Position numbers and translations under genes: made by a program. From contig JAIXWD010000023.1 in the NCBI GenBank assembly GCA_027482225.1, positions 62,001-126,000 on the forward strand: a DNA stretch of 64,000 nt. The letters run 5' to 3'. Origin of the DNA: Bacteroidota bacterium (lineage in GTDB: Bacteria > Bacteroidota > Bacteroidia > UKL13-3). The notes under the pieces were generated by a model. The model did no database searches. It was not told the DNA's origin and saw nothing but the letters and a program-made list of their open reading frames with translations. Shown in pieces: positions 8,885 through 50,450 of the stretch. Numbering within the stretch: position 1 is the stretch's first letter; every line of letters starts with the position of its first letter.

Positions 8885-8955
8885 CACGGACACAAGGATT
8901 CGAACCCTGATCAAAGGTTTTGGAGACCTCTATTCTACCATTGAACTATGTCCGT
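8885..8955 (-). tRNA. tRNA-Trp (anticodon CCA)
   Basis: The 71-nt cloverleaf has acceptor arms ACGGACA/TGTCCGT, anticodon loop CTCCAAA, and T-arm CAGGG/CCTTG with TTCGAAT. The discriminator is G and CCA is not encoded. It sits between tuf and secE in the same transcript. Confidence 0.95.
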
Positions 8956-8969
8956 GTATTTAGACACTA

Positions 8970-8997
8970 AATGTTGGCTAGTTACCCAGCCAACATT
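8970..8997 (-). promoter_or_regulatory. Intercistronic stem-loop between tuf and tRNA-Trp
   Basis: A perfect 10-bp inverted repeat (AATGTTGGCT/AGCCAACATT) with an 8-base loop lies 20 bases after the tuf stop. Only a short TTTAG follows on the transcribed strand, so it is a partial terminator, 3'-end stabiliser or processing site rather than a strong terminator. EF-Tu is needed far above SecE and NusG, which fits a drop in expression here; that role is inferred. Confidence 0.6.
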
Positions 8998-9016
8998 CAG
9001 AATCTAATTTGTTTAA

Positions 9017-10204
9017 TTATTCAAGAATTTCAGTAACCTGACCAGCACCTACTGTTCTGCCACCCTCACGGATAGCGAAACGTAAACCCTTTTCCATTGC
9101 AATTGGAGCAATTAGAGTAACGTTAATAGTTACGTTATCACCAGGCATTACCATTTCCATTCCTTCAGGTAAATGGGTTTCGCCAGTTACGTCTGTGGTA
9201 CGGAAATAGAACTGAGGACGGTATTTGTTGAAGAATGGAGTGTGACGTCCACCTTCGTCTTTTGATAATACGTAAATTTCAGCTTTAAACTTTGTATGTG
9301 GTTTTACTGAACCTGGTTTGCAAATTACCATACCTCTACGGATAGCAGCTTTATCAATACCACGTAATAATAAACCTACGTTATCACCAGCTTCTCCACG
9401 ATCTAATATTTTGCGGAACATTTCTACTCCAGTTACTACAGAAGTTAAATTTTCAGCATCTAAACCAATGATTTCAACTGCCTCATTTGAGTTAATGATA
9501 CCACGCTCGATACGACCTGTAGCAACAGTACCACGACCAGTGATCGAGAATACGTCTTCTACTGGCATTAAGAAAGGTAATTCAGTTGCACGAGGAGGAA
9601 CTGGAATGTATGTATCTACTGCATTCATCAATTCCATGATTTTCTCAACCCATTTTGCATCACCATTCAAACCACCTAATGCTGAACCGCGGATAACTGG
9701 AATTTCATCACCTGGGAATTCGTATTTGTTTAACAAATCACGGATTTCCATTTCAACGATTTCTAATAACTCTTGATCATCAACCATATCCACTTTATTC
9801 ATGAATACAACGATACGAGGTACACCTACTTGACGAGCTAATAAAATATGCTCACGAGTTTGAGGCATTGGACCATCTGTTGATGCTACTACTAGGATAG
9901 CACCATCCATTTGAGCTGCACCTGTAACCATGTTCTTTACGTAATCCGCGTGACCTGGACAGTCAACGTGAGCGTAATGACGGTTAGCGGTTGAATACTC
10001 TACGTGAGCTGTATTAATTGTAATACCACGTTCTTTTTCTTCAGGAGCTGAGTCAATTGAATCGAATGAACGAGCTTCAGATAAACCAGCATCAGCTAGA
10101 ACTTTAGTGATTGCAGCTGTTAAAGTTGTTTTACCATGATCTACGTGACCGATAGTACCAATATTAACGTGTGCTTTACTGCGGTCAAATTTTTCTTTTG
10201 CCAT
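9017..10204 (-). CDS. tuf: Elongation factor Tu
   Basis: 395 residues. This GTPase delivers aminoacyl-tRNA to the ribosome. All G motifs are present: GHVDHGKT (residues 18-25), [19 protein letters not shown] and the SAL motif. Domains 2 and 3 are complete and end in [14 protein letters not shown]. It is preceded by four tRNA genes and followed by a stem-loop and tRNA-Trp, all probably on one transcript from the promoter near 10.9 kb. Confidence 0.98.
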
Positions 10205-10340
10205 AGTTGTGTTGTTTTATTTTTTTTTAATTTTAAGTTTTTTTAATACCAAAAACCGAATGCAAATATGCACTCAGTTAAAATTGTGTTTATTCAGGAA
10301 AACACAGCAAAACCATCTACATCACTTTACTCAGTTTTAG

Positions 10341-10412
<72 letters not shown>

Positions 10413-10420
10413 TTTTAAGT

Positions 10421-10454
10421 ATTGAGGTGATTAAGATTAGTTAATCACCTCAAT
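10421..10454 (-). promoter_or_regulatory. 14-bp perfect stem-loop between tRNA-Gly and tRNA-Thr
   Basis: ATTGAGGTGATTAA and its exact reverse complement flank a 6-base loop in the spacer between two tRNA genes. No T-run follows. A structured spacer here could guide RNase processing of the polycistronic tRNA precursor; this is inferred from position alone. Confidence 0.6.
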
Positions 10455-10463
10455 TTACTCTCG

Positions 10464-10536
10464 AGCGGGAGACGAGGCTCGAACCCGCTACCTACAGCTT
10501 GGAAGGCTGTCGCTCTACCAAATGAGCTACTCCCGC
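10464..10536 (-). tRNA. tRNA-Gly (anticodon TCC)
   Basis: The 73-nt cloverleaf has acceptor arms GCGGGAG/CTCCCGC, anticodon stem ACAGC/GCTGT with loop CTTCCAA, and T-arm GCGGG/CCTCG-type with TTCGAGC. The discriminator is T, as usual for tRNA-Gly. Confidence 0.95.
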
Positions 10537-10614
10537 AGGTTTAATAAATTTAAAAAGATTACACGCCTCTTCACTGATTCTTTTTCACTCATCTTTTAAC
10601 CTATTTGATGGTGG

Positions 10615-10695
10615 TGGGGAGAGAAGGATTCGAACCTTCGAAGCCGAAGCAACGGATTTACAGTCCGTCCCATTTGACCGCTCTGGAATCTCCCC
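10615..10695 (-). tRNA. tRNA-Tyr (anticodon GTA)
   Basis: An 81-nt class II tRNA with a long variable arm. The acceptor arms are GGGGAGA/TCTCCCC and the anticodon stem is ACGGA/TCCGT with loop CTGTAAA. The discriminator is A. Confidence 0.95.
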
Positions 10696-10711
10696 ATTAC
10701 CTTTCAAGGTG

Positions 10712-10784
10712 AGCCACTTGCCGGAATCGAACCAGCGACCTACTGATTACAAATCAGTTGCTCTACCAGCTGAGCTAAAGTGGC
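10712..10784 (-). tRNA. tRNA-Thr (anticodon TGT)
   Basis: The 73-nt cloverleaf has acceptor arms GCCACTT/AAGTGGC and anticodon stem ACTGA/TCAGT with loop TTTGTAA. It is the first tRNA of the cluster, about 85 bases from the promoter. Confidence 0.95.
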
Positions 10785-30949: not shown

Positions 30950-30957
30950 TATATTTG
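30950..30957 (+). promoter_or_regulatory. Candidate -7 box ahead of cobalamin riboswitch 1
   Basis: TATATTTG fits TAnnTTTG and lies about 30 bases before the riboswitch. A convincing -33 element was not found. Confidence 0.42.
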
Positions 30958-30984: not shown

Positions 30985-31165
30985 AAACATTTTAGGGAAT
31001 GCAGTTAAAGTCTGCAACAGTGCCCGCTGCTGTGAGTGTAGTTATTAATTTTATATGTTTTTACCACTGTGAGTATGTGTCATGGGAAGGTTTGTAAAAT
31101 TTTACACAAGTCAGAAGACCTACTGGGTAATTTATTGGTTAAACTTTCGGGAATAAAGGTGATAA
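30985..31165 (+). promoter_or_regulatory. Cobalamin (B12) riboswitch 1
   Basis: The aptamer core runs from GGGAATGCAG (about 30995) through AACAGTGCCCGCTGCTGTGA, with the variable P7-type arm around 31040-31090 and GGGAAGG at 31084. The B12 box AAGTCAGAAGACCTACT lies at 31108-31124. It controls the T9SS-exported protein gene that follows. The box differs slightly from the commonest AGAAGACCTGCC form. The expression platform was not resolved. Confidence 0.85.
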
Positions 31166-31226
31166 CTACATTTCATGCTTAAACATGCCTTGTGCTTATC
31201 TTAATTGTTTCCATTTATTTTTATTA

Positions 31227-32222
31227 ATGAAGATGAGAATTTTAATAGCATTAGTAATGTGCATGGTTTTAACAAAAACACATGCTCAATTCCCACCACA
31301 AGCTGGTATTATTGGAACTACTGCTATGCATAAAGATAGTAGTGTTTTTATAGCTTGGGCAAATAGTGGTTTTATCAATAGAGGTTGGCAAGATGTGTCG
31401 GATACCACATTGGGTAAAGCACAAGTAGGAGATGAAACATATATACCTGGGCCTGCCGGAAACGGAATTGTAAGTTTGGGAGATGGTGGCGAAGCTATTG
31501 TAACGTTTGTAAAGCCAATAAAAAATGGAGTTGGTTTTGACTTTGCTGTTTTTGAAAATGGATTTATTGATCAAACGTTAAAACCAGGAACGGCTTTTTT
31601 AGAGTTAGCATTTGTTGAGGTGAGCAGTGATGGCATAAATTATTTCAGGTTTCCTTCTTCCTGTTTAAATGATACCACTAAACAAATAGATTCTTATGAG
31701 GGTATTGATGCTTCAAAGTTGAATAATTTAGCTGGTAAATACATTGCAAACTTTGGAACTCCTTTTGATTTGGAGGAGTTGAAAAATACTTCAGGTTTAG
31801 ATGTAATGAGTATTACTCATGTAAAAATAATTGATGTAGTTGGCTCGATAACAAATAAGTATGCAACACGCGATAGTTATGGAAACAAAATAAACGATCC
31901 ATGGCCAACACCGTTTTCGCAAAGCGGTTTTGATTTAGATGCTGTAGGTGTTATTCATCAAAATAACAATGTTGGTTTAACAGATTTAGCGGCTAATAAA
32001 CTACAATTAAATGTTTTTCCTAATCCGGCTTCATCTCAAACTAATATTAGCATAAGTATTAATGGAGTTAACGAAGCAATTGTTGAGGTGTATTCACATC
32101 TTGGTAAGTTAGTAAAAACATCAAACCTAAGTACTGCATTAAAAATTGAAGAGCCAGGTGTTTATTATTTGAAGGTAAAACATGATAAGGGTAATCATAA
32201 ACAAAAAATAACAGTGTTATAA
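31227..32222 (+). CDS. T9SS-exported surface protein under B12 riboswitch control
   Basis: 331 residues from the ATG at 31227, which gives a proper signal peptide (MKMRILIALVMCMVLTKTHAQ); an earlier ATG at 31185 would put 14 non-signal residues in front. The body has repeated beta-rich motifs (GDGGEAIVTFVKP, GVGFDFAVFENGF, FLELAFVEVSSDG, SGFDLDAVGVI) seen in surface proteins but no enzyme signature. The last 75 residues form a type A T9SS sorting domain (LNVFPNPASS to the C-terminus). Location directly after a cobalamin riboswitch suggests a role in B12 capture at the surface; this is inference. Confidence 0.85.
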   Translation: MKMRILIALVMCMVLTKTHAQFPPQAGIIGTTAMHKDSSVFIAWANSGFINRGWQDVSDTTLGKAQVGDETYIPGPAGNGIVSLGDGGEAIVTFVKPIKNGVGFDFAVFENGFIDQTLKPGTAFLELAFVEVSSDGINYFRFPSSCLNDTTKQIDSYEGIDASKLNNLAGKYIANFGTPFDLEELKNTSGLDVMSITHVKIIDVVGSITNKYATRDSYGNKINDPWPTPFSQSGFDLDAVGVIHQNNNVGLTDLAANKLQLNVFPNPASSQTNISISINGVNEAIVEVYSHLGKLVKTSNLSTALKIEEPGVYYLKVKHDKGNHKQKITVL

Positions 32223-32353
32223 TGAATGTTGTTGTAAAAACCTGCGAAATCTGTAATCAAGCTTTTGTGTGTAATACTAAAAATGTAAGTAATTGTCTTT
32301 GCTCACAAATTCTATTGAGCAGTGAGGCGCTACAATACATCCAAATGCATTAA
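32222..32353 (+). CDS. Small Cys-rich protein, CWC-like
   Basis: 43 residues whose ATG shares one base with the stop of the preceding gene (TAATG), so translation is probably coupled. Cysteines at 8, 11, 17, 25 and 27 follow the CxxC-x3-F-x-C...CxC spacing of the cysteine-rich CWC family, although W is replaced by L (CLC). It is shorter than usual members. It has no signal peptide, so it would be cytoplasmic and likely binds a metal. The function is unknown. It closes the first riboswitch unit. Confidence 0.7.
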   Translation: MNVVVKTCEICNQAFVCNTKNVSNCLCSQILLSSEALQYIQMH

Positions 32354-32419
32354 ACAGATTGTTTGTGTTTAAGTTGTTTGAAAAGTATAAACGATAAAAT
32401 GAAATTAGCATAGTTGGTA

Positions 32420-33025
32420 ATGAACAAAATCATAAACTCATGTATTGCTTTTTTGTTGATGTTAACTGCATGTAAAAACACGGTTGATGATGCATCGAAT
32501 ATATTACTAATCAACCCTAAACAAACTTACTTAATAGCTGGAGATAGTATTCAATTTACGATAACTAACGCAACAATAAATACAGTTATCAACCTTCAAC
32601 CCAATATTGGGGATTATAAATCAGGTAATTGGTATGTGGCACCATCAAGTATTGTTGTTGATTCAACCCCAATTAATATCGTGTTTAAGGATGATGTAAG
32701 ACAAGCAACAGCAATGATTACGATTTTGAAATCTGATGTGAACGATACCATCATTTCTTTTAATAAAACCATTTTGCCACTGATGGTTGCCAATTGTAAT
32801 TTCCAATTTTGTCATGGTAATGGTTCGCGTGCAGGCAAAGTTGAGTTAAGTACATACGATAGTGTAATGAAATTAGTAACGGCCTTTAAACCCAATAGCA
32901 GCGTGCTTTATACTAGCTTGTTAAAAACAGATCCATTGCGCAGAATGCCACCTGCTGGTCCTTTGCATGCTTATAAAATTAACTACATTAAAAAGTGGAT
33001 TGAGCAAGGTACTTTAAATAATTAG
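32420..33025 (+). CDS. Lipoprotein with CX4CH cytochrome c-type heme site
   Basis: 201 residues from the ATG at 32420; an earlier TTG at 32414 is less likely. The lipobox LTAC places the lipidated Cys at residue 18. The middle is beta-rich and Ig-like. The C-terminal third has FNKTILPLMVANC then C131-H132, giving a C126-X4-C131-H132 motif, followed by RMPPAGPLHAYKINYIKKWI with the possible Met ligand. CX4CH proteins of this build are frequent in Bacteroidota and resemble the Planctomycete-type cytochrome C domain. Heme attachment is probable but not certain. Confidence 0.75.
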   Translation: MNKIINSCIAFLLMLTACKNTVDDASNILLINPKQTYLIAGDSIQFTITNATINTVINLQPNIGDYKSGNWYVAPSSIVVDSTPINIVFKDDVRQATAMITILKSDVNDTIISFNKTILPLMVANCNFQFCHGNGSRAGKVELSTYDSVMKLVTAFKPNSSVLYTSLLKTDPLRRMPPAGPLHAYKINYIKKWIEQGTLNN

Positions 33026-33099: not shown

Positions 33100-33513
33100 A
33101 TGATGAAAAAATTAGTTTTTGGAATGTTTATAGTATTTGCGTTTGCTTGCAGTAATCCTTTAGTTGAAGAAAAAATTGACATCAAACCTATAGAAAAAGA
33201 AGTTATGGAAATTCATGATGAAATAATGCCTAGCATGAGTGAAGTTGTCTTTTTAACCGATGCGATTGATAGTGTAATGAAACAAGAAAAAGACACCATT
33301 AAGTTGCAAGAATTTGGGGTTATTAAAGAATCGTTAGTGAAATCAGATAAGGATATGATGCATTGGATGCGCAGTTATAAATCGCCTGCACAGCCTTATG
33401 ATAGTAATTCGCTAAACTACATAAATAAAGAAAAAGAAAAGGTAGTTAAACTAAGGGCTTTAATATTAAAATCGATTGCAGATGCCAATACTTGCTTACA
33501 AAACAAAAAATAA
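33100..33513 (+). CDS. Helical lipoprotein of unknown function
   Basis: 137 residues from the ATG at 33100 (a second ATG follows at once). The signal MMKKLVFGMFIVFAFAC has a lipobox ending at Cys17. The remainder is charged and helical, with EIHDEIMPSMSEV and DKDMMHWMRSY. A similar Met/His-containing helical lipoprotein often sits beside SCO and cytochrome c genes in Bacteroidota. The sequence cannot settle whether it binds copper or is purely structural. It precedes the SCO gene by 4 bases. Confidence 0.75.
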   Translation: MMKKLVFGMFIVFAFACSNPLVEEKIDIKPIEKEVMEIHDEIMPSMSEVVFLTDAIDSVMKQEKDTIKLQEFGVIKESLVKSDKDMMHWMRSYKSPAQPYDSNSLNYINKEKEKVVKLRALILKSIADANTCLQNKK

Positions 33514-33517
33514 TACA

Positions 33518-34162
33518 ATGAAATTAAATATTAAAAGTGTGGTATTCATAGTAACCTCATGCACACTGGCTGCATGTAATTCATCAACACAAAATACATT
33601 ACCAATATTGGGTAACCGTGTTGCAGAGGAAAAAATGATTGATGGAAAATTGGTAGTTGATACCATTTATCAAACCGTACCTAAGTTTAGTTTATTAAAT
33701 CAGGATAGTGTTGTGGTGAATAATGAAACAGTAAGAGGGAAAATATATGTAGCCGACTTTTTTTTCACCAGTTGTCCAACCATTTGCCCTGTAATGAAAA
33801 AGGAAATGATTAGGGTGTACGAAAAATTTAAAGGCAATAATCAAGTTTTAATGTTATCACATACCATAGACCCTGACTACGACACGATACAGCTATTGCG
33901 CGATTATGCCGATCGGTTGGGATCTGATGGTAAACAATGGATGTTTTTATGTGGCGAAAGAAAGCCATTGTATGAGTTAGCCGAAAAAGGTTACTACGCA
34001 TCGGCTGTTGTTGATAGCACAGAACCGGGTGGTTTTATTCATAGCGGTGGTTTTATTTTGGTTGATAAACAACAACGCGTAAGAGGTATTTATGATGGAA
34101 CATCTGCAACTGATGTAGACAAGCTGATGGTGGATATGGATGTACTTTTAAAAGAACAATGA
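33518..34162 (+). CDS. SCO1/SenC family lipoprotein
   Basis: 214 residues from the ATG at 33518. The lipobox LAAC lipidates Cys20. Copper ligands are C86 and C90 in FFFTSCPTICPVM and H175 in GGFIHSGGFILVD. It differs from the SCO protein of the cox operon by being a lipoprotein rather than helix-anchored. It overlaps the downstream cytochrome c gene by 4 bases (ATGA), so the two are likely co-translated and may act as a redox or copper-delivery pair. Confidence 0.92.
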   Translation: MKLNIKSVVFIVTSCTLAACNSSTQNTLPILGNRVAEEKMIDGKLVVDTIYQTVPKFSLLNQDSVVVNNETVRGKIYVADFFFTSCPTICPVMKKEMIRVYEKFKGNNQVLMLSHTIDPDYDTIQLLRDYADRLGSDGKQWMFLCGERKPLYELAEKGYYASAVVDSTEPGGFIHSGGFILVDKQQRVRGIYDGTSATDVDKLMVDMDVLLKEQ

Positions 34163-34557
34163 GAGTTGTTATCACATTAATCGTTGTGGTGTTTTTTGCT
34201 GCATGTATGGAAGCACCAAATGTAAACATGCAGCAAGTGGCGCACGGACAACAATTGTACGAAATACATTGTGCAAATTGCCATCAATTGGATGGTAAGG
34301 GTATAGCACGAATTATTCCTCCATTGTTAAATGCCGATTACATTTTAAAAAATAGAAATTTGTTACCGAAAATTATTCGTAATGGCATGCAACAAAGGAT
34401 TTTTATAAATAGAATAATATACCAACAAAAAATGCCAAATAACAATAAATTAACCGATGCAGAAATTACCGCATTGGTAAACTTTGTAGAGTTTAGGTTT
34501 GCTAAATCAACACAACTGCTCTCTGCTGATAGTGTAAAGAATTTACTAAATAAATAA
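34159..34557 (+). CDS. Cytochrome c lipoprotein
   Basis: 132 residues. The lipobox FAAC lipidates Cys16. One class I heme site is present, C38-ANC-H42 (CANCHQLDGKG), with the probable axial Met in QQKMPNNNKLTDAEI. It overlaps the SCO gene by 4 bases. It should carry electrons at the periplasmic face; a partner oxidase or copper protein is not identified. Confidence 0.9.
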   Translation: MRVVITLIVVVFFAACMEAPNVNMQQVAHGQQLYEIHCANCHQLDGKGIARIIPPLLNADYILKNRNLLPKIIRNGMQQRIFINRIIYQQKMPNNNKLTDAEITALVNFVEFRFAKSTQLLSADSVKNLLNK

Positions 34558-34700
34558 AGTACTACTTTGTGTTTTTATGGTACTTTTCAGTTAAAATTCT
34601 ATTTTTAATTCATGTTTATTGTGTTTAAATTTATATTTTTAATGATTTTCGGGTGTAGGTTTTTAAGTTATTGTGCATATTTTTATTATAATTGCGACAC

Positions 34701-35180
34701 ATGAAACGTTTTTCAATATTGGCATTAATTGTTACTGGGTTAACAATAGCCACCTTAACAAGTTGTTCAAAAGATGATAATTCTTCAAACTCTGTCATTA
34801 CAACCGATGCAAGAGATTTGTCAGTAGGTTCTTACATCGGCACGTTTACTACGGTAATAGCTGGACAAACGAATTCAGATTCGGCAAATTTTACGATTTC
34901 GAAAGGTGCTAATAATACCATAAACATTTTAGATGATGGTATTAATATTTTAACAGGAGCGATAGTAACTACAGGAACAAACTACAAATCAAGTATACCT
35001 GCCCAAACCATAAAAACTTATGACGAAACAGACTCAACAGAAATGACTTTTAATATTATAGGTAATGGAAATGACCCTGTTTCATTTGAAAGTAGTTCAA
35101 AAAGGTTTACCTATAGTATTAAACTTGTTGGTGGTCAATTGGATGGATTGATTGTTACAACAACAGGTATTAAACAATAA
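34701..35180 (+). CDS. Small lipoprotein of unknown function
   Basis: 159 residues from the ATG at 34701. The signal MKRFSILALIVTGLTIATLTSC lipidates Cys22 and is followed by a KDDNSSNS linker. The rest is beta-rich with Gly/Thr-rich stretches and no known motif. It stands alone between the cytochrome gene and a bidirectional terminator. Confidence 0.72.
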   Translation: MKRFSILALIVTGLTIATLTSCSKDDNSSNSVITTDARDLSVGSYIGTFTTVIAGQTNSDSANFTISKGANNTINILDDGINILTGAIVTTGTNYKSSIPAQTIKTYDETDSTEMTFNIIGNGNDPVSFESSSKRFTYSIKLVGGQLDGLIVTTTGIKQ

Positions 35181-35198
35181 TTTTCTAACTACTGAAAC

Positions 35199-35236
35199 GA
35201 AAAAAGCGCGGAAACTTAGTTTCTGCGCTTTTTTTG
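35199..35236. terminator. Bidirectional terminator
   Basis: AAAAAAGCGCGGAAACT and AGTTTCTGCGCTTTTTT form a stem with one mismatch and a tiny loop, bordered by A- and T-runs. It serves the plus-strand lipoprotein gene and the convergent M28 peptidase gene. Confidence 0.88.
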
Positions 35237-45460: not shown

Positions 45461-45493
45461 CTTGCACAAAATTAAAATATTAAAATACCTTTG
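45461..45493 (+). promoter_or_regulatory. Candidate promoter of the btu operon
   Basis: CTTG (45461-45464) and TACCTTTG (45486-45493) are 21 bases apart. The -7 box matches TAnnTTTG exactly, and it lies about 40 bases before the riboswitch core. Confidence 0.52.
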
Positions 45494-45529
45494 TTTCATC
45501 TTTTGGTGCATGTTAGTTTTTTACCATGC

Positions 45530-45720
45530 TTAAAAGGGAATTAGGTGTAACTCCTAAACAGTACCCGCTGCTGTAAGTACCAAATCAATGCAAATTGGTT
45601 TAAAAAGGTTGTTTAAATCTTAGTCACTGTTCTAACAAAACGAATGGGAAGGCCAAACAATCTGGTATAAGTCAGAAGACCTGCCAATAGTATTTTTACC
45701 ATGTAGCTTTCGGGAAAAAA
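45530..45720 (+). promoter_or_regulatory. Cobalamin (B12) riboswitch 2
   Basis: The core includes AAAAGGGAATTAGGTGTAAC (about 45532-45551), ACAGTACCCGCTGCTGTAAG (45558-45577) and GGGAAGGCC near 45648. The canonical B12 box AAGTCAGAAGACCTGCC is at 45669-45685. It precedes btuB, so it should shut the uptake operon off when cobalamin is abundant. A GCTTT...AAAGC hairpin just after it (about 45707-45724) may be the expression platform. Confidence 0.92.
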
Positions 45721-45810: not shown

Positions 45811-47703
45811 ATGAAACAAGTATTGGCATTAGTAGGTTTATTTTGGCTTTGTTGTTTACAACTTAAAGCTCAAATATCGTCTGCAGACACTATTAAACAT
45901 TTACCTGATTTTACTGCACGTGGCCATCGTTTCGAGTCATTTAATATTGGTGCTAAAATGGTGCAAACTGATTCGTTAGTTAAGCTTATTTCCATAAATG
46001 ATAATATAGCTCAATTATTAAGTTATAACAGCCAGGTGTTTATTCGTGCATATGGTCATAACCAAATTGCTACTTCAAGTTTTAGAGGTGCAGGTGCACA
46101 ACACACTGCAGTATTGTGGAATGGAGTAAATCTGCAAAACAGCCTTTTAGGTCAAACAGATTTAAGCTTGTTGCCTGCAGGATTTATGGATGATATTGGT
46201 GTTTATTACGGTGGTAACTCCGCATTGTATGGTGCAGGCGCAATTGGTGGCGCTATAATGCTCAACAACTCATCCGCTTTTAACAAAAATGGAGCTAACT
46301 ATCAAATTGGTATAGGTAGTTTTGGGATGATACAACATCGTTTGGCATTAACTTACGGCACCAATAAAAGCTATATAAAAGCACGTTTTTATCATCAATC
46401 TGCACAAAATAATATTGAATACCATAACTATACATTAGCCGAAAAACCTTTACAAAAGTTGGTACATGCTGAGCAAAGAAGTAATGGGTTGATGTTGGAA
46501 ACAGGATATAAAATTAACACGAAACAAGAGATTAACCTGCGTTACTGGTATGGATATACAGACCGTGATATTCCACCTACAATTGGCATGGCAGTTAACA
46601 ACTCATATCAAATTGATGAAGCCAACCGATTAGGTATTGAATGGAAACGCACCTCAACTAAAAGTAGATGGATTGGTCGTGCTGCCTTTGTAAATGAATA
46701 TTTAAATTATAACGATCCTACAACATACAATTCTGGAATTAGTAAGAGTAAAACATTTATTAGCGAATTGGAAAATACCACACAAATCAACCCAAATACC
46801 GCCTTAAATTTTGGTGTAAATTATACAGGAAATTTTGTACAAAGTAGTGGCTATACAAAAAATGTAAGCAGAAATAGTATAGCTTCATTTGTATCTTTAA
46901 ACAACAATTGGAGTAAGAAGTTCAAAACAACAGTTAACCTTCGTCAGGATTTTGTTGATACCGAGTTTAAGCCATTTACAGCAGGTGCTGGTGCTGATTA
47001 TAAATTCAGTAAATACATAAGTTTGTTAGCTCAATTTAACAAGTCGTTTAGAATGCCTACACTTAACGATTTGTATTGGGTAACAGGTAATTTAAACCTA
47101 TTACCCGAACAAGGTTACTCACAAGAGTTGGGTTTATCAGCAAAGGGCACAACCGAACATGCTTACTTTAGTATTCAACTTAATGGATTTAATCGTCAAA
47201 TAAATAATTGGATTTTGTGGCAACCATATGGTGGTTCATGGACACCTCAAAACTTGTTACAAGTGTGGAGTAGGGGTATAGAGTGGAATACACGTTATAC
47301 ATATTGCTACAAGAAATTCATGTGGAGTGCACGCGGAGATTTGAATTATATATTATCAACTAACCAAAAGGCTAATTTGCAAAATGATGTCACAGTAGGT
47401 AAACAGCTAATTTACATTCCGCGATTAACATATCAAACTTGGTTAACATTTACTTATAGCAATGCGTATTTAGCATTTAATCAAACATATACCGGCTATC
47501 GTTTTACAAGCAGTGATAATAGCTCTTTTGTTGATGATTATTTATTGGTAAACATGTTTATGGGTAAAACATTTAAACTAAAAAAAGGGCAGGTTGATAT
47601 CAAGTTTCACATCAATAATATATTTAACCAAGAATATCAGGTGTTGCCATCAAGGCCAATGCCTATGCGAAATTTTTTATTCAGTTTAGGAGTTTCATTT
47701 TAA
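45811..47703 (+). CDS. btuB: TonB-dependent cobalamin receptor
   Basis: 630 residues from the ATG at 45811, which gives signal MKQVLALVGLFWLCCLQLKAQ; a TTG at 45778 is less likely. The plug domain contains IRAYGHNQIATSSFRGAGAQ, VLWNGVNLQNS and GGNSALYGAGAIGGAIMLN. A compact 22-strand barrel ends in the aromatic MRNFLFSLGVSF. There is no carboxypeptidase-like extension. The BtuB assignment rests on the riboswitch and the BtuG-like neighbour as well as the short BtuB-type build. Confidence 0.9.
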   Translation: MKQVLALVGLFWLCCLQLKAQISSADTIKHLPDFTARGHRFESFNIGAKMVQTDSLVKLISINDNIAQLLSYNSQVFIRAYGHNQIATSSFRGAGAQHTAVLWNGVNLQNSLLGQTDLSLLPAGFMDDIGVYYGGNSALYGAGAIGGAIMLNNSSAFNKNGANYQIGIGSFGMIQHRLALTYGTNKSYIKARFYHQSAQNNIEYHNYTLAEKPLQKLVHAEQRSNGLMLETGYKINTKQEINLRYWYGYTDRDIPPTIGMAVNNSYQIDEANRLGIEWKRTSTKSRWIGRAAFVNEYLNYNDPTTYNSGISKSKTFISELENTTQINPNTALNFGVNYTGNFVQSSGYTKNVSRNSIASFVSLNNNWSKKFKTTVNLRQDFVDTEFKPFTAGAGADYKFSKYISLLAQFNKSFRMPTLNDLYWVTGNLNLLPEQGYSQELGLSAKGTTEHAYFSIQLNGFNRQINNWILWQPYGGSWTPQNLLQVWSRGIEWNTRYTYCYKKFMWSARGDLNYILSTNQKANLQNDVTVGKQLIYIPRLTYQTWLTFTYSNAYLAFNQTYTGYRFTSSDNSSFVDDYLLVNMFMGKTFKLKKGQVDIKFHINNIFNQEYQVLPSRPMPMRNFLFSLGVSF

Positions 47704-47714
47704 GATTAAAATAC

Positions 47715-49322
47715 ATGAAAAAACAAATTTTACTTTTAGTAACAATAATTTTTGCGGCAACTGTTATTGCACAAACTAAGTCAGGTTTTGAAGATATTAC
47801 ATTGTCTAATAACAGTGTAAAAAACGGATCAGGTGCACCTGTTAGTGGAAAATTTAATAGTGGAAACGTTGAATTTGCAAATACCTATCAAACCAACTAT
47901 GGTGGTTTTTGGAGTAATGGTTGGGCATACTCAAATATTAAAAACGATACCAACGGAACTTTTAATAATTTGTTTGCTGCTTATGCTAATTCAGGGTCAA
48001 ACAACTCATTAAATTATGCTGTCGGTCAGCAAGCTAGTGTAATGCGTATTACCGGTTTTGATGCTGGTGATACTGTAAAAGGTTTGTATTTAACGAATGG
48101 TACTTATCCTGCATTAACGATTAAAAACGGAGATACGTTTTCAAAAAAATTTGGTGGAAGTAATGGAACCGATCCTGACTTTTTGGTATTGATTATAAAA
48201 GCATGGAAAAACGGTGTAAAATCTTTAGATAGTGTAAATTTTTATCTTGCCGATTATCGCTCTGACAGCAATGCTTTAGACTATATTGTTAAAGATTGGA
48301 CCTGGGTTAACTTAACTTCTTTAGGTGCTATTGATTCGCTTGAGTTTATCATGAATTCATCAGACAAAGGACAATTTGGAATTAACACACCTTTGTTCTT
48401 TTGTGTTGATGATGTTGTGACCAAAAACGATACTGCAGATTTTGAAAATTTAAGTTTAGCAGCAAACAAGTTTTGGAGTAAACCAAACACATCTATTCGT
48501 ACAACTTACCAAAGTGGAAATTCCATTTTCCCTGCACGTTTCAGTGTATCAAGCTTTGGTGATTATTGGAGTAGTGGTTTTGCTATATCAAACAAAACAG
48601 ATGTACAATTGGATAGTGGTGTTGTTGGTTACAACAAAATATACAATGCTGTAGTTGCGCTAGGTGCTGACTCAACAGAAAACTATGCAGTTGCGCAACA
48701 AGATGCCCGTATTATTTTAACCGGAAATGCAGCAGGTAAACAATTAGAAGGAGTGTATGTAACCAACAGCAATTATGCATATTTAAGTATGAGGTGGGGC
48801 GATGGTTTTGCCCGTAGGTTTAGCGATACAGATTATTTTAAATTGAACATGATTGGTTATAAAAATGGTGTAACAACCGATACCGTTCCTTTCTATTTGG
48901 CACAAAATGGCAACATTGTTAACACGTGGACTTGGGTTGATTTAAAACCATTAGGAAATGTTGATAGTGTATTATTCCGTTTGTCATCATCAGATGTGGG
49001 GCAATTTGGAATGAATACTCCTGGGTTTTTTGCTATAGATGAATTTACAACACGTGATGTTTTTGTGGGTTTATCAACCATAAAAAACAATTTAAATGCA
49101 AGCGTATATCCTAACCCAACAACAGGTAAATTTAATTTGAGTGTTGTAGGTAAATCCAATGCTGTTTTGATAACAGTATATGATGTTATGGGTAAACAAA
49201 TGTTGAAACAATCGGTATTTAACAACAGTTGGGTTGATTTAGGTGATTTAGCTAATGGTATTTATTTTGTTATGATTGAAGATAAGAACCTATCAACAGC
49301 AGTTCGAGTATTAAAACATTAA
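47715..49322 (+). CDS. T9SS-exported protein with two DUF4465-like domains
   Basis: 535 residues. After the signal (MKKQILLLVTIIFAATVIAQ) come two tandem copies of one domain, about residues 24-235 and 240-450. Each begins with FEDITL/FENLSL, has a FWSNGWAYS/YWSSGFAIS motif, a NYAVGQQ/NYAVAQQ motif and ends GQFGINTPLFFCVDD/GQFGMNTPGFFAIDE. This fits DUF4465. A type A T9SS sorting domain closes the protein (VYPNPTTGKFNLS onward). Surface B12-binding proteins of gut Bacteroides called BtuH are, as I recall, of this domain type; a B12-binding role is therefore plausible but unproved. Confidence 0.85.
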   Translation: MKKQILLLVTIIFAATVIAQTKSGFEDITLSNNSVKNGSGAPVSGKFNSGNVEFANTYQTNYGGFWSNGWAYSNIKNDTNGTFNNLFAAYANSGSNNSLNYAVGQQASVMRITGFDAGDTVKGLYLTNGTYPALTIKNGDTFSKKFGGSNGTDPDFLVLIIKAWKNGVKSLDSVNFYLADYRSDSNALDYIVKDWTWVNLTSLGAIDSLEFIMNSSDKGQFGINTPLFFCVDDVVTKNDTADFENLSLAANKFWSKPNTSIRTTYQSGNSIFPARFSVSSFGDYWSSGFAISNKTDVQLDSGVVGYNKIYNAVVALGADSTENYAVAQQDARIILTGNAAGKQLEGVYVTNSNYAYLSMRWGDGFARRFSDTDYFKLNMIGYKNGVTTDTVPFYLAQNGNIVNTWTWVDLKPLGNVDSVLFRLSSSDVGQFGMNTPGFFAIDEFTTRDVFVGLSTIKNNLNASVYPNPTTGKFNLSVVGKSNAVLITVYDVMGKQMLKQSVFNNSWVDLGDLANGIYFVMIEDKNLSTAVRVLKH

Positions 49323-49391: not shown

Positions 49392-50450
49392 ATGAAACTC
49401 AAGAAATATTTTTTATTATATATAATTTTAATAGTAGTGTTTAGCGCTTGCGAAACTACACCTACTATTACCCCCGAATATCCGCCTATTTTAAATCCTA
49501 AAGGAGGTTTGTTTATTTTAAATGAGGGTAATTTTCAATTTAGCAATGCCACATTGGATTATTATGATTTCGAAACTCAAAAATTATCAACTAATGCTTT
49601 TGAAACCACCAACAAACGCAAGTTGGGAGATATACTTCAATCCATAACCCATTATGGCGATAAAGGATATTTAGTAGTTAACAATTCGCAAAAAATAGAA
49701 GTTATTAATATGAATAACTTATCATCTATAGCCACAATCAGTGGTTTTGTTTCGCCAAGATATATGGTTATACATGGCAAACAAACAGCTTATGTAAGCG
49801 AGTACTATAATGGTGGAGTAAAAGTGGTAGACTTAAATACTAACCAAATTACTCAAACCATACCTTTAAGTGGAAACTGCGATGAATTATTGGTACATAA
49901 CAACAAACTTTATGCTACGGTATCAAACAAAAAAATGGTATATGTTATAAATACACAAAGTAATGTGGTAATGGATAGTATTGATGTAGCTTATGGCCCA
50001 AACAGTTTATTGATAGATAAAAACAATCATTTATGGGTGTTATGTTCGGGTAGGGTAATAAATGGTGGTGGTTTTGAAAATGGTGCTTTACATAAAATAA
50101 ATACAGATGCAGATACTGTGCTTCAGTTATTTTATATCACACGCCAAAGTGATCATGGGCCAATTAAATTATGTTGTAATGCTAAAAAGGATGTATTGTA
50201 TTGGATTAATAAGAGTATTTATAAGTATGAAATAGATAAAAATATGGTTTCATCAAAACCATGGCTCACATCATTTAACAATAACTTTTGGGCATTAAAC
50301 TGCGACTCTTTAACTAATGAGGTTTATGTTGGAGATGCCATTGATTTTGTTCAACGATCAACTATTAATAGGTATGACGAATCAGCAACTTTAAGAGGCA
50401 CTTTTAAGGCAGGTATTATTACTGGAGACTTTTATTTTTACTACAAATAA
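49392..50450 (+). CDS. btuG: BtuG-like beta-propeller surface lipoprotein
   Basis: 352 residues. The lipobox FSAC lipidates Cys20. The body is a YncE/DUF5074-like propeller with repeated blades such as GYLVVNNSQKIEVINMNNL, VKVVDLNTNQITQTI and MVYVINTQSNVVMDSI. In Bacteroides, BtuG is a propeller lipoprotein that caps BtuB and hands over cobalamin; gene order and riboswitch control match here. I infer the same role. The stop overlaps the next gene's ATG by one base. Confidence 0.85.
   Translation: MKLKKYFLLYIILIVVFSACETTPTITPEYPPILNPKGGLFILNEGNFQFSNATLDYYDFETQKLSTNAFETTNKRKLGDILQSITHYGDKGYLVVNNSQKIEVINMNNLSSIATISGFVSPRYMVIHGKQTAYVSEYYNGGVKVVDLNTNQITQTIPLSGNCDELLVHNNKLYATVSNKKMVYVINTQSNVVMDSIDVAYGPNSLLIDKNNHLWVLCSGRVINGGGFENGALHKINTDADTVLQLFYITRQSDHGPIKLCCNAKKDVLYWINKSIYKYEIDKNMVSSKPWLTSFNNNFWALNCDSLTNEVYVGDAIDFVQRSTINRYDESATLRGTFKAGIITGDFYFYYK

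Follow-up and report, generated by a model that had tools for sequence, protein, structure and literature searches.

What is a cobalamin riboswitch doing in front of a gene for a surface protein of unassigned family? The question is raised by a locus in the 64,000-nucleotide stretch of Bacteroidota DNA analysed here (the window). A sequence-only reading of this locus had claimed a cobalamin aptamer upstream of a T9SS-sorted protein and, coupled to it, a very small Cys-rich protein, and had suggested that the larger product captures cobalamin at the cell surface. The aptamer is present. The Rfam model RF00174 is matched over its full length (positions 1–189, E 6e-19) with a score above the gathering score (Table 1), and on both sequence and Rfam alignment the B12 box lies exactly where it had been placed. 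The aptamer as a whole begins 38 bases upstream of the start first given. The genome holds two RF00174 matches, both of them inside the window.

The leader contains more than the aptamer core. A hairpin about 20 bases 3' of the B12 box, P13, presents in its loop a CGGG that is complementary to the CCCG of aptamer loop L5, and we infer that the two pair as a regulatory kissing loop. Among 43 cobalamin switches at related loci, 41 carry a CGGG no more than 90 nt from the B12 box, against a shuffle expectation of 9%, and this retention points to a kissing-loop regulatory element rather than a mere aptamer. The octamer TATATTTG fits the Bacteroidota promoter −7 motif TAnnTTTG, which is retained in six of the seven aligned homologous leaders of the closest relatives, and we take it to be a promoter element. 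An intrinsic terminator was sought between the riboswitch and the gene at 31227–32222 and none was found, whilst folding of the leader RNA gave a z-score that was not useful. The riboswitch is predicted to bind cobalamin and to act by repression.

Table 1. Features of the riboswitch locus and of the btuB operon in the window
Feature	Coordinates	Strand	Basis
Cobalamin riboswitch aptamer RF00174	30947..31141	+	Rfam, 83.0 bits against gathering score 31.5
TATATTTG, fits promoter −7 motif TAnnTTTG	30950..30957	+	Aligned leaders
CCCG in L5 of the aptamer, putative partner of L13	31023..31026	+	Sequence; invariant among aligned leaders
B12 box	31108..31124	+	Sequence and RF00174 alignment
P13/L13 hairpin CTTT-CGGGAAT-AAAG, loop CGGG at 31148	31144..31158	+	Complementary to L5 CCCG
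BtuH-like T9SS cargo protein, 331 aa, ATG 31227	31227..32222	+	ORF, domain searches, fold
Signal peptide, residues 1–20, no lipobox at cleavage site	31227..31286	+	Read from sequence
BtuH-type B12-binding-like beta domain, residues 21–247	31287..31967	+	AF2, VIA, hhalign
N111-G112-F113, counterpart of BtuH2 Asn399/Phe401	31557..31565	+	Profile alignments; PMC8941943
T9SS type A C-terminal sorting domain, residues 263–330	32013..32216	+	TIGR04183, PF18962
Cys-rich CWC ORF, 43 aa, shortened by premature TAA	32222..32353	+	PF14375, 26.9 bits
In-frame remnant of CWC C-terminus, TDCLCLSCLKSINDKMKLA then stop	32354..32413	+	Frame continuation
PSCyt1-like lipoprotein with CX4CH motif (NCNFQFCHG, unusual)	32420..33025	+	PF07635, 27.7 bits
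Second cobalamin riboswitch, upstream of btuB operon	45487..45702	+	90.3 bits
BtuB-type TonB-dependent receptor	45811..47703	+	PF00593, PF07715; gene context
Double DUF4465 (BtuJ-type) protein with T9SS sorting domain	47715..49322	+	PF14717, 287 bits, two stretches; PF18962
BtuG-like DUF5074 beta-propeller lipoprotein	49392..50450	+	PF16819, 84 bits

The gene behind the first switch encodes the main protein of the locus, for which an alternative start at 31185, giving 345 residues, is possible. Its signal peptide was recognised by eye from the hydrophobic N-terminal sequence, not by a predictor. The C-terminal sorting domain scores above both relevant cut-offs (PF18962, 34.8 bits against 27; TIGR04183, 40.6 against 23) and is kept across the relatives, 64 of 64 by TIGR04183 and 63 of 64 by Pfam. 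SprA (TIGR04189) was found in the genome at 2535 bits, so the T9SS machinery is present. Both the description of the main protein as T9SS cargo with a signal peptide and the contention that this route takes the place of lipoprotein anchoring are supported by the type A tail and the lack of a lipobox. Most likely, as far as sequence can tell, this is a B12-regulated, T9SS-exported surface protein serving as a cobalamin-capture factor.

The central domain of the protein, about 225 residues long, reaches the cut-off of none of the Pfam and NCBIfam models. A structural model was built with AlphaFold2 from 64 family members (mean pLDDT 91), and 997 PDB chains were re-ranked with VIA. The highest ranking domain match, with a Z of 12.7 over 158 residues at 3.1 A, is B. 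thetaiotaomicron BtuH2 (7biz), followed by the H-domain of BtuG1 (8blw, Z 11.8); unrelated domains reach Z of about 7–9. In the plain Foldseek E-value list, computed on the two-domain model, the BtuH2 and BtuG1 chains are absent from the top 50, and the beta-glucuronidases which head that list (TM about 0.2 on the two-domain model) were dismissed as meaningless for the domain. Searches of PDB sequences with phmmer and with profiles returned T9SS tails or chance matches and did not find BtuH.

Profile–profile comparison provides a second line of evidence. Bacteroidales B12 loci supplied the BtuH-domain proteins for this purpose, recognised as such because they match 8blw and 7biz. The window family and its distant relatives align in hhalign at 99.7%, and the distant relatives align with BtuH at 93.4% (E 2.5e-7, 156 columns from the domain start). 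Direct comparison of the window family with BtuH is modest, at 71% (E 3.7e-5, about 100 columns), while DUF4465, used as a negative control, gives 0.1–0.4%. In BtuH2, Asn399 touches the phosphate of B12 and Phe401 its lower ligand (PMC8941943); these residues correspond to the N and F of GNAF in the PDB sequence, with a numbering offset deduced from the construct. In the profile alignments GNAF pairs with FENGF of the main protein, whose N111 is conserved in 100% and F113 in 98% of 81 sequences. The other BtuH2 contacts, Gln333, His476, Tyr510, Trp511 and Trp577, fall outside any confident alignment. The earlier description of a beta-rich protein is upheld by the structure search, and the statement that its family is not yet assigned remains correct for Pfam and NCBIfam, but the domain is no orphan: its fold and, by way of the distant relatives, hhalign relate it to BtuH. 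Two other families were considered and rejected: DUF4465, for which there is no PF14717 match and an hhalign value of 0.4%, and the LIC_13355 family (NF033170), whose match is too short and scores far under the cut-off of 120.

The main gene is a recurrent member of btuB–DUF4465–btuG operons well beyond the window locus. With a single genome scanned for each species, 135 relatives were recovered, and the context counts cover 80 of these. Homologues of btuB and/or btuG adjoin the gene in 45 of the 80; in 38 of these cases a riboswitch is present as well, and in seven the DNA examined holds no box, several of the seven lying on contigs that end just upstream. A further 18 are lone genes immediately preceded by a cobalamin switch, and in two the box lies farther upstream; Rfam checks accompanied these counts. 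Where boxes were found, 55 are on the sense strand versus five on the opposite strand. The commonest gene order is btuB, DUF4465, main protein, btuG. In one relative, L021, the DUF4465 and main-protein domains are fused in a single protein according to Pfam, and L086, judged by its length and N-terminus, probably carries the same fusion.

Within the family to which the source genome belongs, the gene is found in 52 of 58 genomes. Of its 54 copies, 32 lie 0.1–4 kb downstream, in sense, of an RF00174 match, nine of them at up to about 150 bases and the remaining 23 at 3–4 kb, the operon type. The other 22 have no RF00174 match within 7 kb on their contig, and for 15 of the 80 close relatives the examined DNA contains no riboswitch, so control by B12 is not universal. 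Eight named relatives, L017 and L049 among them, and others besides have neither a cobalamin riboswitch nor B12 genes nearby. When 198 genomes from the whole phylum are considered, 26 contain a relative, which is distant in 20; many of the distant relatives adjoin DUF5074 (btuG) or a cobalamin switch.

The window itself contains a btuB operon behind the second riboswitch, but that operon has no copy of the main gene in the usual place, between DUF4465 and btuG; the gene is found 14.5 kb away, behind a switch of its own. In related genera it is located inside the btuB operon, which it thus appears to have left in the source genus. The double DUF4465 protein of that operon is apparently a BtuJ-type B12 binder, likewise exported through the T9SS. 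A B12-dependent MetH is present in the genome, split into two genes on different contigs (C3:387397-389958 and C16:207123-208106), and searches for cobJ/cbiH gave no match above cut-off, a combination which fits a B12-dependent scavenger.

We consider it quite probable that the main protein is a T9SS-exported, BtuH-type B12-capture protein which forms a riboswitch unit of its own in the source genus. When cobalamin is scarce, the riboswitch, through its aptamer and kissing loop, would permit expression, and the product would pass through the Sec pathway and the T9SS to be shown on the cell surface or released from it. There the beta domain would bind cobamides, with N111 and F113 at the nucleotide loop, and might pass them to the BtuG–BtuB pair of the second cobalamin-switched operon. 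The computed parts of this scheme are the riboswitch, the features of a T9SS cargo, the fold with its remote BtuH homology and the operon association. A degree of caution is called for in reading the domain as BtuH-type, as the beta-sandwich is a common fold.

There is a small but appreciable chance that the main protein is instead a B12-regulated surface accessory which does not itself bind B12, such as a BtuBG-opening partner or a BtuL-like vesicle factor. BtuL of B. thetaiotaomicron, which also belongs to a B12 operon, shows no cobalamin binding, and BtuK2 likewise did not bind (PMC12751083); the copies of the main gene outside riboswitch control would also suit such a role. However, fold and remote homology both indicate the very domain with which BtuH binds B12, and the N-x-F contact motif is almost invariant. 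That motif also bears on the nature of the ligand. The next lipoprotein in the unit of the main gene is c-type-heme-like and sequence does not reveal ligand specificity, which leaves room for capture of incomplete corrinoids such as cobinamide, or of another tetrapyrrole. Yet the conserved counterparts of Asn399 and Phe401 contact the nucleotide loop and lower ligand, so complete cobamides are favoured and the alternative is quite improbable. That the main protein is a CBM32-like carbohydrate-binding adhesin with an incidental riboswitch is very improbable, for although T9SS cargo is frequently carbohydrate-active and CBM32 and other galactose-binding-like folds reach Z of about 8 in the VIA ranking, BtuH stands 4 Z units higher and the repeated linkage to btuB, btuG and DUF4465 in dozens of lineages would be unexpected for an adhesin.

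If members of the family do bind B12, aquatic and environmental Bacteroidota deploy a BtuH-type domain through type IX secretion, the toolkit of B12 competition is wider than known, and proteins so far recognised by their T9SS sorting domain alone gain a testable function. The surface B12 scavengers BtuG, BtuH, BtuJ and BtuK have been characterised as lipoproteins of gut Bacteroides. In the literature consulted, no mention of T9SS-exported B12 binders was found. A bolder reading, and a distinctly unlikely one, is that a widespread class of T9SS-secreted B12-binding proteins serves the Bacteroidota as released "protein cobalophores" which compete for B12 outside the cell. Together with Cys-rich mini-proteins (CWC or DUF5522) and with a lipoprotein that is c-type-heme-like, they would form a unit for capture and processing unlike the lipoprotein-based gut systems.

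A number of parallels can be drawn with known systems. With BtuH, which is BT_1956 of B. thetaiotaomicron, the main protein has in common the fold of the B12-binding domain, the core VSLG..GG...DF..N-x-F, a gene context of btuB, btuG and cobalamin riboswitch and, by prediction, a surface location. In contrast to BtuH2 it is without Ig or PKD domains, the domain beginning right behind the signal peptide; a T9SS type A tail replaces the lipoprotein signal of BtuH, direct sequence similarity is seen at profile level only, and the gene lies here outside the btuB operon. The main protein is not filed as BtuH because it has no lipoprotein signal and no Ig/PKD domains, the homology is moderate and binding is predicted only. 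DUF4465/BtuJ (IPR027828) proteins are beta-rich B12 scavengers which resemble it as operon neighbours and fusion partners and, in the window copy, by their T9SS tail, but they form a separate family without profile similarity. BtuG (DUF5074) shares operons with the main protein and, by prediction, a role in B12-regulated surface capture of B12, but is a propeller and a lipoprotein, and a stable partner of BtuB. Finally, LIC_13355 lipoproteins of Leptospira show a weak match to the core motif (about 50 residues, 25 bits, in 39 of 64 members), and may possibly be distant relatives of the main protein; no B12 link has been reported for them (PMC11891782).

The small gene that follows proved less complete than it had seemed. 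The proposed TAATG coupling is borne out, as the stop codon of the main gene (TAA 32220–32222) overlaps the ATG at 32222–32224. The 43-residue product does match PF14375 (Cys_rich_CWC) above the cut-off of 24, but over profile positions 1–35 of 50 only, and its length is due to a stop at 32351–32353. Beyond this TAA the frame continues with TDCLCLSCLKSINDKMKLA, which matches the C-terminal half of the homologues (YTDCLCLSCLKKIN...), mostly of 61–73 residues, and places the CLCxxC of the family behind the stop; 43 residues is hence not the family size. Six relatives (including L015, L018 and L049) have an intact CLCxxC tail and 62–73 residues. The 43-residue form is probably a decaying allele, although it may instead reflect an assembly error. 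In two sister genomes the CWC gene survives as a recognisable but broken remnant (L013:8980-9156 and L014:6700-6893) beside an intact main gene. CWC genes also follow btuG in seven further B12 operons, and in L039 and L064 CWC precedes the main protein in one continuous reading frame. A PF14375 search of five genomes gave no match. From these gene contexts, the association of CWC with B12 loci is recurrent and the protein dispensable. The idea of CWC as an essential partner was rejected, the gene being truncated here and decayed in L013 and L014. Four distant relatives are fused in frame behind a different mini-domain, DUF5522 (CCGxxCRHCP), which precedes the signal peptide, the position taken by CWC in L039 and L064.

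The PSCyt1-like lipoprotein gene is probably part of the riboswitch transcript. It follows the CWC gene in the closest relatives, overlaps it in L015 and L018, and follows the main gene in L017. Next on this strand come genes for SCO1/SenC, cytochrome c and another lipoprotein (33476–35180), with a strong terminator-like hairpin at their 3' side (35198–35236), an order retained in the closest relatives only. Elsewhere in the window a cluster of five tRNA genes occupies 8885–10784 on the minus strand.
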